Below, in pieces: positions 20,631 through 24,173 of a DNA stretch of 64,000 bases. This DNA comes from an uncultured Clostridia bacterium (GTDB taxonomy: Bacteria; Bacillota; Clostridia; Christensenellales; CAG-314), in the NCBI GenBank assembly GCA_944336125.1, contig CALVLA010000006.1:1-64000 (forward strand), written 5' to 3'. A program made the translations under genes and the position numbers. The notes below the pieces were generated by a model. The model saw nothing but the letters and a program-made list of their open reading frames with translations. It did no database searches and was not told the DNA's origin. Each line of letters starts with the position of its first letter. The stretch's first letter is position 1.

Positions 20631-21758
20631 TTACAGTTTTTTAATTACCGTTACGCTTTCCTTGTGTTTTTCTCTTTCAAACACGTTCCACAGCGACTGC
20701 ATTTTTACGTTGGTCACAAGTTCAGGGTTTGACTCGGCAAACTTGATGCCGTCTTTCACCGCATTTTCGTGAATATACTTCAAAAGCAAAGCGGCTGCGC
20801 CCTTTTTGTCGTAACCCGGCAACGCTCCGATAATCGCGAATTCCAGCTCGGTAGGATGTTTGACTTCCTTAAGCAACCTGAAAATCGTTTTAAGCGTAAG
20901 CCTGCCTTTCGAACCTTTGAACACCTTTGCAAGATGAGGAAAAGCAAGCGCAACAGCAACAGCATCGCCCTCGGGAGTAAGTACAACCGCAACATAATTT
21001 TTGTTGATTACCAATTTAAACTGGTCTTTCAACTGCACCCTCATTTTAGGGGACATAGGCAAGGTTCCCGGAAGAACGCTGTATGCCTGGTCATACACGT
21101 CAAAAAGCTTTGTCAGATATTTTTCGATAAAAACATCGAGATTTTTTTCAACGGGAACATAAAGTCCGTATCTTTTTTCGGCAATCTCGGCAACTCTCAA
21201 AACTTTGTCAGGCAGCTTGTCAGGAATTGTCAGCCTGAATTCATCCCAGACGTTTTCTATTTCGTATCCGCATTGAAGAAGCAGAGGCAAATAGTAGTCA
21301 TAGTTGTAGTTTGTCGCAAAAGTAGCGTCTCTGTCAAAACCTTTTGTTCTGAAACCTTCGCGGTCCATATCGTTGAATCCGTAAGGTCCGTGTACGGTAT
21401 CCATACCCTTTTCGCGGGCATAGTCCTCGACAGCCTGCGTAAGCGCCCTTACTACTTCGACGTCGTTTACGAAATCAAGCCTACTCAGACGCATATTTTT
21501 TTTGTTTTCCTTTTCGTTTGAAGTATGCTGAATGATACCCGCTACTCTGCCGACGATTTTTCCGTCCTTATATGCCAAAAAGTATCTTGCCTCGCATTCG
21601 TCAAAAGCCACGTTCTTTTTAGGATTTGCCAAATTCATCTCGTCGCCGAAAAGATACGGGATATAATGCGGGCAATCTTCGTAAAGCTTGTTTACAAAAT
21701 CGACCCAAGGCTTAAACTCTCTTTTTTTCGTAGGGTCCACTACTTTAATTTCAACCAT
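20631..21758 (-). CDS. GNAT-like N-acetyltransferase-fold protein
   Basis: This cytoplasmic protein of 375 residues starts MVEIKVVDPTKKREFKPWVDFVNKLYEDCPHYIPYLF, the hallmark of a widespread uncharacterised GNAT-related family. An N-terminal acyltransferase-like half (FLAYKDGKIVGRVAGII near 80) is followed by a second half with RLLKEVKHPTELEFAIIGALPGYDKKGAAALLL. No substrate is known. It is monocistronic, with GGAGG before ATG, its own promoter and its own terminator. Confidence 0.8.
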   Translation of the reverse strand: MVEIKVVDPTKKREFKPWVDFVNKLYEDCPHYIPYLFGDEMNLANPKKNVAFDECEARYFLAYKDGKIVGRVAGIIQHTSNEKENKKNMRLSRLDFVNDVEVVRALTQAVEDYAREKGMDTVHGPYGFNDMDREGFRTKGFDRDATFATNYNYDYYLPLLLQCGYEIENVWDEFRLTIPDKLPDKVLRVAEIAEKRYGLYVPVEKNLDVFIEKYLTKLFDVYDQAYSVLPGTLPMSPKMRVQLKDQFKLVINKNYVAVVLTPEGDAVAVALAFPHLAKVFKGSKGRLTLKTIFRLLKEVKHPTELEFAIIGALPGYDKKGAAALLLKYIHENAVKDGIKFAESNPELVTNVKMQSLWNVFEREKHKESVTVIKKL

Positions 21759-21810: not shown

Positions 21811-21897
21811 GTAATAATAAACAAATTTCATTTTTATAATAATTATAATTTTTTAACTGACCGAATAAATTGGTAACACATAAAGGAGGACAAAGTC

Positions 21898-23433
21898 ATA
21901 GGCAACATATACAAAACGGTGATAACGATAACTTTGTTTTCCACCGTTGACCAGATAGGCGGATTCGTATACACGATAATTCTTTCGCGGGCGATAGGAG
22001 CAGAAGGAATAGGTATGTATCAGGTTGCGATAAACCTGGTAAGTCTTGCCGTGGCATTGTCGGCAAGCGGACTTCCTTTCGTGCTTGGCAGACGGGTAGC
22101 CGAATTCGACGCTTTGGGAAACAGCGAAGGACAGCACGCTTCCACCACCGCCGCGCTTTTGGTAGGACTGAGTATTTCCACTGCCACCTGCGTATTTTTT
22201 TTGCTTAACAAAAATTTGCTTGTAACGGTTACCAAATCCGAACAAATTGCCACGATGTGCCTGTTTTTGCTTCCGGCGGCTTTTGCAAACTCGGCATATG
22301 CCTGCTTCAGGGGAGCGATATGGGGAAAAAAGCGTTACTTCGCGCACAGTTCCCTTGAAATAATCGATATAGTAATAAGAATAACTATCGCGCTTTTCGT
22401 CTTTCAGGGGCTTTTTACGGCTTATACGGGCGCACTTAGAGCATGTCTGGCATATTCCACTACCTGCGTAATCACGGCTTCGTTATCTTTTTTGATTTAC
22501 CGCTTTTCAGGCGGAAAATTCAAAAAACCGTCAGACCACATAAAGCCTATCATAAAAAGCGCCGTTCCCGTTTCAGGCATAAGGCTTGCCGGCAATTTGT
22601 TCAGCACGGTAATAGCCCTCCTTTTCAATTCGAGAATGACTGCCGCAGGTTACACTTTAAACGCCGCAATGGCGGAATACGGTATTCTTACAGGCATGAC
22701 GCTGCCTATGATTGCTTTCCCCGTTATTTTTACATGCGCCATTTCCACCACACTGGTTCCGGAAATTTCGGGAAACATGAAAAAACACGACGTAAATACC
22801 GTAAGACGACATCTTAAAAAAGCAATAGACTACACCATGCTTTTCGGAGGACTCGCGATAGGTGTTTACCTTTCTTTCGGAAGGCAGATATGCACACTTG
22901 TGTTTTCTAATCCCGACGCAGGATCATACGTTCAAAACGCTTGTTGGATAATGATTCCTCTCGCGGTTTCCTCACTCACCACCAGCCTGCAAAACTCATT
23001 GGGGCTGGAATACAAAAGCCTCGTCAACTATTTTGCGGGCGCGGCGTGCATGCTTTCGGCAGTGTGGTTTTTGCCTAAGTTCATAGGAGCATATTCCCTT
23101 ATCGTAGGTACGGGAATAGGCATGACCGTTACGGCGCTTCTCAACATCTTCATGATTTGCTCGCACGTAAAACTAAACGGCGGATTTTTGAAAACACTCA
23201 CTTCGATAGTAGCCTTTGCCGCCCTTTCGGCGCTGTCGGGCAAACTTGCTTACAATTTGCTTTTGCTTGCGTTAACTCCGCTGTCTGCCCTTCCTATAGG
23301 CTGTCTCGCCGCCGTAACCGTTTACCTCTTGTTGACAAGCGTATTTGACACCGCGGGAGTCAACACTCTTTGGAAAAACCTCTATTTCTGCGTTGACCCG
23401 CACTCATGCCTCAACTCTTTCCGCAAGGCGTAA
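21898..23433 (+). CDS. SpoVB/MurJ-like polysaccharide flippase (MOP superfamily), probable AUA start
   Basis: This multi-spanning lipid-linked oligosaccharide flippase has about 511 residues and resembles SpoVB. It shows QIGGFVYTIILSRAIGAEGIGMYQ at the N-terminus and about 14 helices. The only strong Shine-Dalgarno (AGGAGG, 21884-21889) is eight bases before an in-frame ATA at 21898. The first in-frame GTG, at 21919, is 29 bases away and would cut into the first helix. An ATA (AUA) start is therefore proposed, giving an N-terminus I/M-GNIYKTV. In spore formers SpoVB acts in cortex synthesis; a vegetative role is equally possible. Confidence 0.85.
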   Translation: MGNIYKTVITITLFSTVDQIGGFVYTIILSRAIGAEGIGMYQVAINLVSLAVALSASGLPFVLGRRVAEFDALGNSEGQHASTTAALLVGLSISTATCVFFLLNKNLLVTVTKSEQIATMCLFLLPAAFANSAYACFRGAIWGKKRYFAHSSLEIIDIVIRITIALFVFQGLFTAYTGALRACLAYSTTCVITASLSFLIYRFSGGKFKKPSDHIKPIIKSAVPVSGIRLAGNLFSTVIALLFNSRMTAAGYTLNAAMAEYGILTGMTLPMIAFPVIFTCAISTTLVPEISGNMKKHDVNTVRRHLKKAIDYTMLFGGLAIGVYLSFGRQICTLVFSNPDAGSYVQNACWIMIPLAVSSLTTSLQNSLGLEYKSLVNYFAGAACMLSAVWFLPKFIGAYSLIVGTGIGMTVTALLNIFMICSHVKLNGGFLKTLTSIVAFAALSALSGKLAYNLLLLALTPLSALPIGCLAAVTVYLLLTSVFDTAGVNTLWKNLYFCVDPHSCLNSFRKA

Positions 23434-23478: not shown

Positions 23479-24024
23479 TTATTTTTCGGTCTGAACGTTT
23501 TCCTGTCTGAATTTCAAAGCATTGGTAAGCGGCTTTACTTTAAGCAAAATGCCTATTACGACAAAGTTGACGGCTGCCACCAACAGCTGTGTAGGAATAC
23601 GTACGGCAAGGTACGCCCAGAAAGTTTTTCCTTTGCTGTAAGCAAGGAAAGTCGCCAAAGTGTTAAGTCCGCAGGTACAAATAATGAGACACAACACTAT
23701 CGCGATAAAAAGCTTAACGGTGTCGCTTTTAAGTTTAACGAACTTAAAAACAAGACCTGGAATACATCCCAAAAGACCCGACGCCAATCCTACGAGAATG
23801 AGATAAGGTCCCAAAGGATTTATGATTGCTCCCAGTACGTCTGCCATAAGTCCCACCGCGAAACCGCAAACGGGACCGAGGAAAATTCCCGCAAAAAAGC
23901 AAGGAATGTACACGAGAGAAAGAAAGTTTCCGCCGCCGCCCAAAGGTATTACGTAAATGTTGGCAATGGTGGCGAGAGCGGTAAACACTGCCATATAGGC
24001 AATAGTTTTTGAATTTTTTGCCAT
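23479..24024 (-). CDS. folT: Folate-family ECF transporter S component
   Basis: This membrane substrate-binding subunit has 181 residues and about six helices (MAKNSKTIAYMAVFTALATIANIYVIPLGG, then PCFFAGIFLGPVCGFAVG). It would work with a shared ECF ATPase/T module encoded elsewhere to import a folate. The specificity is inferred from the tetrahydrofolate riboswitch directly upstream and from its S-component family look. The start at 24024 follows GGGGAGG by seven T. An ORF extension to 24150 would translate the riboswitch and is rejected. Confidence 0.88.
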   Translation of the reverse strand: MAKNSKTIAYMAVFTALATIANIYVIPLGGGGNFLSLVYIPCFFAGIFLGPVCGFAVGLMADVLGAIINPLGPYLILVGLASGLLGCIPGLVFKFVKLKSDTVKLFIAIVLCLIICTCGLNTLATFLAYSKGKTFWAYLAVRIPTQLLVAAVNFVVIGILLKVKPLTNALKFRQENVQTEK

Positions 24025-24083
24025 AAAAAAACCTCCCCGAAAATAGGCAGGCCCATAACAAGCGCGGACAAAGCCGCTATTTT

Positions 24084-24173
24084 GCAACGGACGCAATTCA
24101 GCATCGCGGAAAATCCTTCGTTTGCGGGCAACGTTCCCATCCCGCAACACTTTACGCGCTGAACCTACTTTGC
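24084..24173 (-). promoter_or_regulatory. Tetrahydrofolate (THF) riboswitch aptamer
   Basis: On the minus strand the conserved order GTAGGTTC, GCGCGTAAAGTG, a perfect 7-bp P3 (TTGCGGG/CCCGCAA) enclosing ATGGGAACGTTG, then ACGAAGG, CGCGATGCTGAAT, GCGTCCG matches the class I THF riboswitch. Outer GCAA/TTGC (P1) and GTTCAGC/GCTGAAT (P2) pairings close it. It lies between a good promoter and the folT-like start. About 45 nt after P1 contain CCT-rich segments that could mask GGGGAGG, suggesting translational control. Confidence 0.9.

Follow-up and report, generated by a model that had tools for sequence, protein, structure and literature searches.

In the 64,000-nucleotide stretch analysed here (the window; contig CALVLA010000006.1 of an uncultured Clostridia bacterium of the Christensenellales), the gene of a SpoVB-like flippase is very probably translated from an AUA codon at position 21898. 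The comparison of its orthologues gives a wider result, namely that starts at AUA, AUC or AUU (collectively AUH, where H is A, C or U) appear to recur in this one sporulation-type flippase and to alternate with apparently leaderless starts. AUH starts as such are already known, from infC and ccpN for example, but for their recurrence within one gene, in exchange with leaderless starts, no apparent report was found in the literature on AUA and other near-cognate starts, leaderless mRNAs and spoVB. Such codons usually count as curiosities, known from infC and a handful of other genes, and a gene caller limited to ATG, GTG and TTG would misplace the start of this flippase.

The start site in the window and in the genus

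The product of the gene is matched by PF01943 (Polysacc_synt, MOP superfamily) with 57.5 bits, above the gathering cut-off of 28.2. It is like SpoVB in that the equivalog model TIGR02900 is its best NCBIfam match, over nearly the full length, but the score of 183.5 bits is under the curated cut-off of 372.3, and the protein therefore counts as SpoVB-like and not as certified SpoVB. The genome has a second paralogue with a better score, 250.1 bits, which is again below the cut-off. No relatives of the flippase were found in the PDB by sequence. The gene is followed at 23479-24150, on the minus strand, by that of a folate-family ECF transporter S component (TIGR04518, 88.9 bits, cut-off 60); the divergent neighbour on its other side is included in Table 1.

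Table 1. Features at and around the flippase start, in window coordinates
Feature	Position	Strand	Basis or remark
Divergent neighbour, weak GNAT match	20631..21758	-	PF00583 20.2 bits, cut-off 20.7
ATA, candidate -35 core	21845..21847	+	16 bases 5' of the -10 box, spacing as in C. difficile spoIIID
AATAAATTG, candidate -10 box of a sigma-E-like promoter	21864..21872	+	score 9.4 against 95% null 10.2
Shine-Dalgarno (SD) site AAAGGAGG	21882..21889	+	8 bases 5' of the ATA; duplex with anti-SD -10.9 kcal/mol
AAG, aligned with the GTG start of G001 and G003 (ACG in G002)	21883..21885	+	alignment
SD half of a predicted 12-bp hairpin	21885..21896	+	partner 21931-21942; -14.8 kcal/mol, z -1.95
ATA, proposed start codon (read as fMet)	21898..21900	+	ATA also in G002; ATG start column of many orthologues
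SpoVB-like MOP flippase gene	21898..23433	+	511 codons plus stop; PF01943 and TIGR02900 scores
GTG, earliest in-frame canonical codon, not accepted as start	21919..21921	+	29 bases past the SD site; GTC in G002

The first-pass annotation, made from the letters alone, had placed AGGAGG (21884-21889) eight bases ahead of an in-frame ATA, and this is read directly in the sequence, with 21890-21897 as the spacer. It had also named GTG 21919, 29 bases from the SD site, as the next possible start, which is borne out. The stop-to-stop frame (21877-23433) is open for 518 codons, with TAA directly 5' of it at 21874-21876, and ATG, GTG and TTG are absent from it ahead of that GTG, the codons there being CAC ATA AAG GAG GAC AAA GTC ATA GGC AAC ATA TAC AAA ACG. 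The further remark that a start at the GTG would remove part of the first helix holds in so far as the loss touches the edge of the helix, while only seven residues would go.

The pairing of an SD site with ATA is no evidence by itself, since the pattern GGAGG-N5-10-ATA was counted 81 times (41 + 40) in the genome of the window, fewer than the 124 matches (60 + 64) of the reversed pattern, and the case rests on the gene context and on relatives. A start screen covered 342 predicted genes in 464 kb of this genome (G000) and 306 genes in 400 kb of the related genome G002; five genes in the former, apart from the flippase, and eight in the latter had GGAGG before a non-canonical codon and no good canonical start. 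By inspection, only infC and the flippase, in both genomes, combined AUH and GGAGG with the lack of a nearby, equally good canonical start; in the remaining rows the codon is AAA, TTT, GAG or the like, or there is an ATG or GTG next to it or a little further on. Among the G000 genes screened, the flippase alone had the full 8-letter SD at the start position with no canonical start.

The comparison within the genus covers four species, the window genome and its congeners G001, G002 and G003. The closest relative of the flippase, with 68% identity, is encoded by G002, where the start region reads GCT ACG GAG GAT AAC GGC ATA ACA AAC ATA TAC. The arrangement there is GGAGG-ATAACGGC-ATA, with an eight-base spacer and with the ATA in the same column as in the window; the window GTG 21919 corresponds to GTC, and the first canonical codon of G002 comes at +48, inside the first helix. 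A small upstream frame overlaps the start in G002 only and is absent from the window.

Two of the four congeners count against the AUA reading: the frame of G001 and G003 contains a GTG five codons upstream, right behind a promoter-like box and with no SD site. A start upstream of ATA 21898, at AAG 21883 or at ATA 21880, with hardly any leader on the mRNA, would agree with this GTG, which is aligned with the AAG and stands just behind the same promoter; moreover, where this gene has GAG GAC within the SD stretch, the aligned positions of G001 and G003 are coding. To our knowledge, neither AAG nor ACG is a workable bacterial start. ATA 21880, for its part, has no SD site, the SD that is present would be wasted, and the DNA upstream of it shows an indel of 5 bases when G000 is aligned with G002, which fits a leader and not a coding sequence. 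We regard an upstream start as highly improbable. Given initiation at AUA 21898, the grouping of G002 with G001 and G003 in the protein tree (support 87) means that the AUA start is possibly the more ancient one in the genus.

Start codons, SD sites and promoters across the order

A flippase match at E 1e-40 or better was present in 215 of the 396 genomes of the order. The 163 orthologues examined for their starts comprise the best 150 of these 215 minus three (G107 and G251, cut at contig ends, and G152, with the N-terminus missing), plus 16 that were added: G003; G038, G041, G044, G052 and G054; and ten from a family search. The other genera of family f1, to which the window genome belongs, gave only weak matches to the flippase, though sigma-E-like factors are present in them. 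The start was taken to be the nearest ATG from -60 to +15 of the ATA column, otherwise GTG or TTG, otherwise AUH within three codons, and SD strength played no role in these calls. ATG was assigned to 121 orthologues, GTG to 16, TTG to 15 and AUH to 11 (ATA 5, ATC 4, ATT 2); none of the 163 was left over, and no other codon class occurred among those lacking a canonical start.

These starts converge on the ATA column of the window. The ATG lies exactly there in 59 of the 121 cases and at most three codons away in 108; AUH lies exactly there in 9 of 11 and one codon before in the other two. The N-termini of the orthologues, M-x-x-I/L-F/I/Y-K, resemble [ATA]-G-N-I-Y-K of the window. Initiation at GTG 21919, with the ATA-SD pair a coincidence, could appeal to its being the first canonical codon in frame and to the frequency of bare GGAGG-N-ATA pairs by chance; yet it has no SD site near (29 bases off), it is replaced by GTC in G002, whose first canonical codon falls inside the helix, and the orthologue starts sit at the ATA column. 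It is, in our judgement, very unlikely. The comparison of orthologue N-termini, proposed at first pass as a check, thus came out for the AUA: their starts are not at the equivalent of the GTG, and the commonest one is ATG exactly at the ATA column. Together with the ATA and equal SD spacing in the closest relative, this supports the probable AUA start.

An error of sequencing or assembly, or a decayed gene, has on its side only the fragmentation of the assembly into 20 contigs, and we consider it extremely unlikely. A base error in ATA 21898 would have to be reconciled with the same codon at the same SD spacing in the separate assembly of a separate species and with ATA, ATC or ATT at this place in nine further species, and decay with an open frame of 518 codons that shares 68% identity with G002.

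The AUH members belong to five families: G000 and G002 (f1), G054, G081, G137 and G120 (f19), G299, G387 and G128 (f3), G359 (f15) and G087 (f29). In genus g29, G054 and G137 have ATA and G081 has ATC, so that the codon letter was swapped and AUH kept. On the best tree of 88 full-length proteins (all 11 AUH members and 77 of the 152 others) AUH requires nine changes, and at least six are forced by well-supported branches. The clustering of AUH on the tree is at most weak (37 of 500 shuffles were as low), which counts against our reading, as does the promoter score of the window, just under the null threshold (see below).

AUH starts are otherwise scarce in these genomes. In a background sample of 213 genes from 20 genomes of the order, there were 17 in which no canonical start lay close to where coding was estimated to begin; one of these is the G137 flippase and the other 16 are, by inspection, apparently misplaced gene calls, so that no convincing AUH start beyond the flippase was found in this sample, and among the 648 genes of G000 and G002 infC alone had one. 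The contrast between 11 of 163 flippase orthologues and 0 of 856 background genes (p 1e-9) is a rough one, as it merges two different procedures, infC and the flippase being excluded from the background.

An SD site, counted as present where the duplex energy with the anti-SD was -5 kcal/mol or lower, accompanies the start codons of the 163 orthologues very unevenly: ATG in 22 of 121, GTG in 3 of 16, TTG in 14 of 15 and AUH in 11 of 11, all of the latter at -6.2 kcal/mol or lower (the weakest, G120, at -6.2). The ATG orthologues are unusually SD-poor, because 113 of the 172 ATG genes in the background sample (213 genes, 20 genomes) have an SD site (Fisher p 3e-16, with the orthologues not independent of each other). 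A weak start (AUH or TTG) and an SD site shifted jointly in about seven of nine supported independent pairs and never in opposite directions (median p 0.016).

In the SD-less ATG and GTG orthologues, a TATAAT-like hexamer ends 4-9 (mostly 5-6) bases 5' of the start in 88 of 112, against 19 of 112 when the position was shifted by 10 bases, 11 of 112 at 15 and 48 at 20, where the -35 element lies. The hexamer is found just before the start in 0 of 14 TTG and 0 of 11 AUH genes (for one of the 163 the upstream sequence was too short). After refinement the motif reads ATA, about 16 bases, CATAnAATA, 4-5 bases, ATG, in which the -35 was read from columns aligned on the -10 box, as only a diffuse signal came from a motif search aimed at a second element upstream. 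This motif is like the mapped sigma-E promoter of C. difficile spoIIID, ATA-N16-CATATATA, including the ATA-N16 spacing (PMC3789822, from the available part of that paper), and the window genome encodes a sigma-E (354.1 bits, cut-off 348.6).

With the sigma-E-like -10 box ending 4-7 bases ahead of their ATG or GTG, most SD-less orthologues (among L148-L286) look leaderless, which suggests that leaderless mRNAs of this flippase are conserved across the order. The window gene differs from them in its predicted leader of about 20 bases with an SD site. At the matching place in the genus, the promoter score is 13.0 in G002, 11.6 in G003 and 10.1 in G001. Among the AUH genes, the motif stands 20 bases upstream in G002 (13.0), 22 in G054 (13.0) and 25 in the window (9.4, slightly short of the 95% null of 10.2). 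Only G359 of the remaining eight passes the null, at 38 bases, within the up to 118 bases examined. In SD-bearing ATG and GTG orthologues the motif exceeds the null in 17 of 25, mostly 13-17 bases upstream.

Known AUH starts and the possible meaning of weak initiation

The gene that invites comparison is infC, which starts with ATT in G000, G002 and G003 and with ATC in G001, GGAGG lying 8-9 bases ahead in all four genomes of the genus. In the order, infC had an AUH start in 20 of the 21 loci where the N-terminus was located (by eye; nine of 30 were not located). By this established precedent the cells of the group should manage initiation at AUH behind an SD site. The flippase is like infC in the strong SD, the 8-9-base distance and the AUH start in the same genomes, the sites in G002 being GGAGGACAGACTCATT (infC) and GGAGGATAACGGCATA (flippase). 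It differs in that infC encodes IF3 itself, whereas no connection of the flippase with initiation is known, and in that its AUH start recurs without being fixed. Autoregulation of infC by IF3 is known from E. coli. Two peculiarities of the translation machinery were also considered: a missing IF3 was rejected, infC being present in 4/4 congeners, and there was no sign of an odd tRNA set in the 20 of 30 tRNA loci scanned (three CAT-anticodon tRNAs, the rest ordinary).

In the explanation that we propose, the strong SD eight bases upstream would place initiation on AUA 21898 and the initiator tRNA would read it as fMet, inefficiently, so that little flippase would be made per mRNA. That initiation takes place at this AUA in cells, and that it is weak, we infer from the genome comparison. 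The repeated weak start codons in relatives suggest that production of the flippase is held low on purpose, and the comparative pattern fits the idea, already voiced at first pass, of low or IF3-dependent expression. The SD found in 22 of the 121 ATG orthologues means, for its part, that weak initiation is not universal.

Measured examples come from Staphylococcus aureus, where, according to the available part of one study, AUA and AUU sites yield about 10% of the AUG output, reaching as much as 30% in the case of ccpN in rich medium; ccpN and cvfC1 have an extended SD, and ccpN is conserved with B. subtilis (PMC13009471). The flippase shares the rare AUH start with ccpN, cvfC1 and citZ (AUA or AUU starts, reduced output), but these are unrelated genes in which initiation was measured and not inferred, and the same part of the study reports no leaderless alternation (PMC13009471). 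Another comparison is sigG of Bacillus subtilis, a sporulation gene with a non-AUG start, whose translation is damped by that start together with a hairpin covering the RBS, as described in the accessible part of PMC5942855; it differs in being another gene, in starting with GUG/UUG rather than AUH, and in that the hairpin predicted for the flippase (Table 1) is not conserved. An SD-covering hairpin as a conserved mechanism was dropped, as it is not formed in G002 and accessibility was not clearly different between the start classes.

The order-wide pattern would be one in which the flippase alternates between a leaderless AUG or GUG behind a sigma-E-like promoter and an SD site combined with UUG or AUH. 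Since the gene would thus switch between two weak modes, weak initiation may be maintained by selection. By analogy with infC, IF3 would oppose initiation at the flippase AUA, and the maintained weak initiation is perhaps IF3-sensitive. As far as the available part of a review goes, IF3 discriminates against AUU, AUC and AUA, not against AUG, GUG and UUG, and antagonises leaderless mRNAs (PMC4611024). The same part of the review holds that on leaderless mRNAs GUG is no substitute for AUG, a statement hard to square with the apparently leaderless GTG orthologues, and, with UUG escaping discrimination, IF3 sensitivity would leave out the 15 TTG orthologues (PMC4611024). The boldest reading, with which the pattern is compatible, is that the flippase is under negative IF3 control throughout the order, exerted through leaderless AUG/GUG or through SD plus AUH, with lineages moving between the two and retaining the control; with the TTG class and the 22 SD-bearing ATG orthologues against it, we think it unlikely. 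If this were true, the flippase and infC would form a small regulon reading the IF3-to-ribosome ratio in spore formation.

The AUA start could also be real and have no regulatory meaning: the need for the protein would be low, start strength would drift, and an existing SD would tolerate AUH. This is a serious possibility, although not the one to which we incline. A sporulation-type gene is probably low-expressed, all kinds of start codons occur among the orthologues, and a suboptimal start is known to go together with a stronger SD site, according to the part of PMC5622118 at hand. Against drift, the same part of that work records AUG-to-AUH switches as extremely rare, with one to AUU among 61,358 ancestral AUG starts (PMC5622118), compared with at least about six changes here, and the genes surveyed in G000, G002 and the 20 background genomes gave AUH beyond the flippase in infC only. 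Selection is favoured by this rarity elsewhere, by the about six changes in the flippase and by the exchange of one AUH codon for another in g29 with no return to AUG. The repeated adoption of AUH with an SD alongside offers a natural series in which to ask whether selection favours weak initiation, and makes testable the idea that leaderless AUG and SD-AUH are interchangeable means to low or IF3-sensitive initiation.

A related arrangement is seen in the f3 genus g72 (L202, L203, L206, L211, L216, L221 and L241), where TTG is preceded by a GAGG SD, with a promoter-like box about 16 bases upstream; this is a leadered weak start as in the AUH genes, with UUG replacing AUH.
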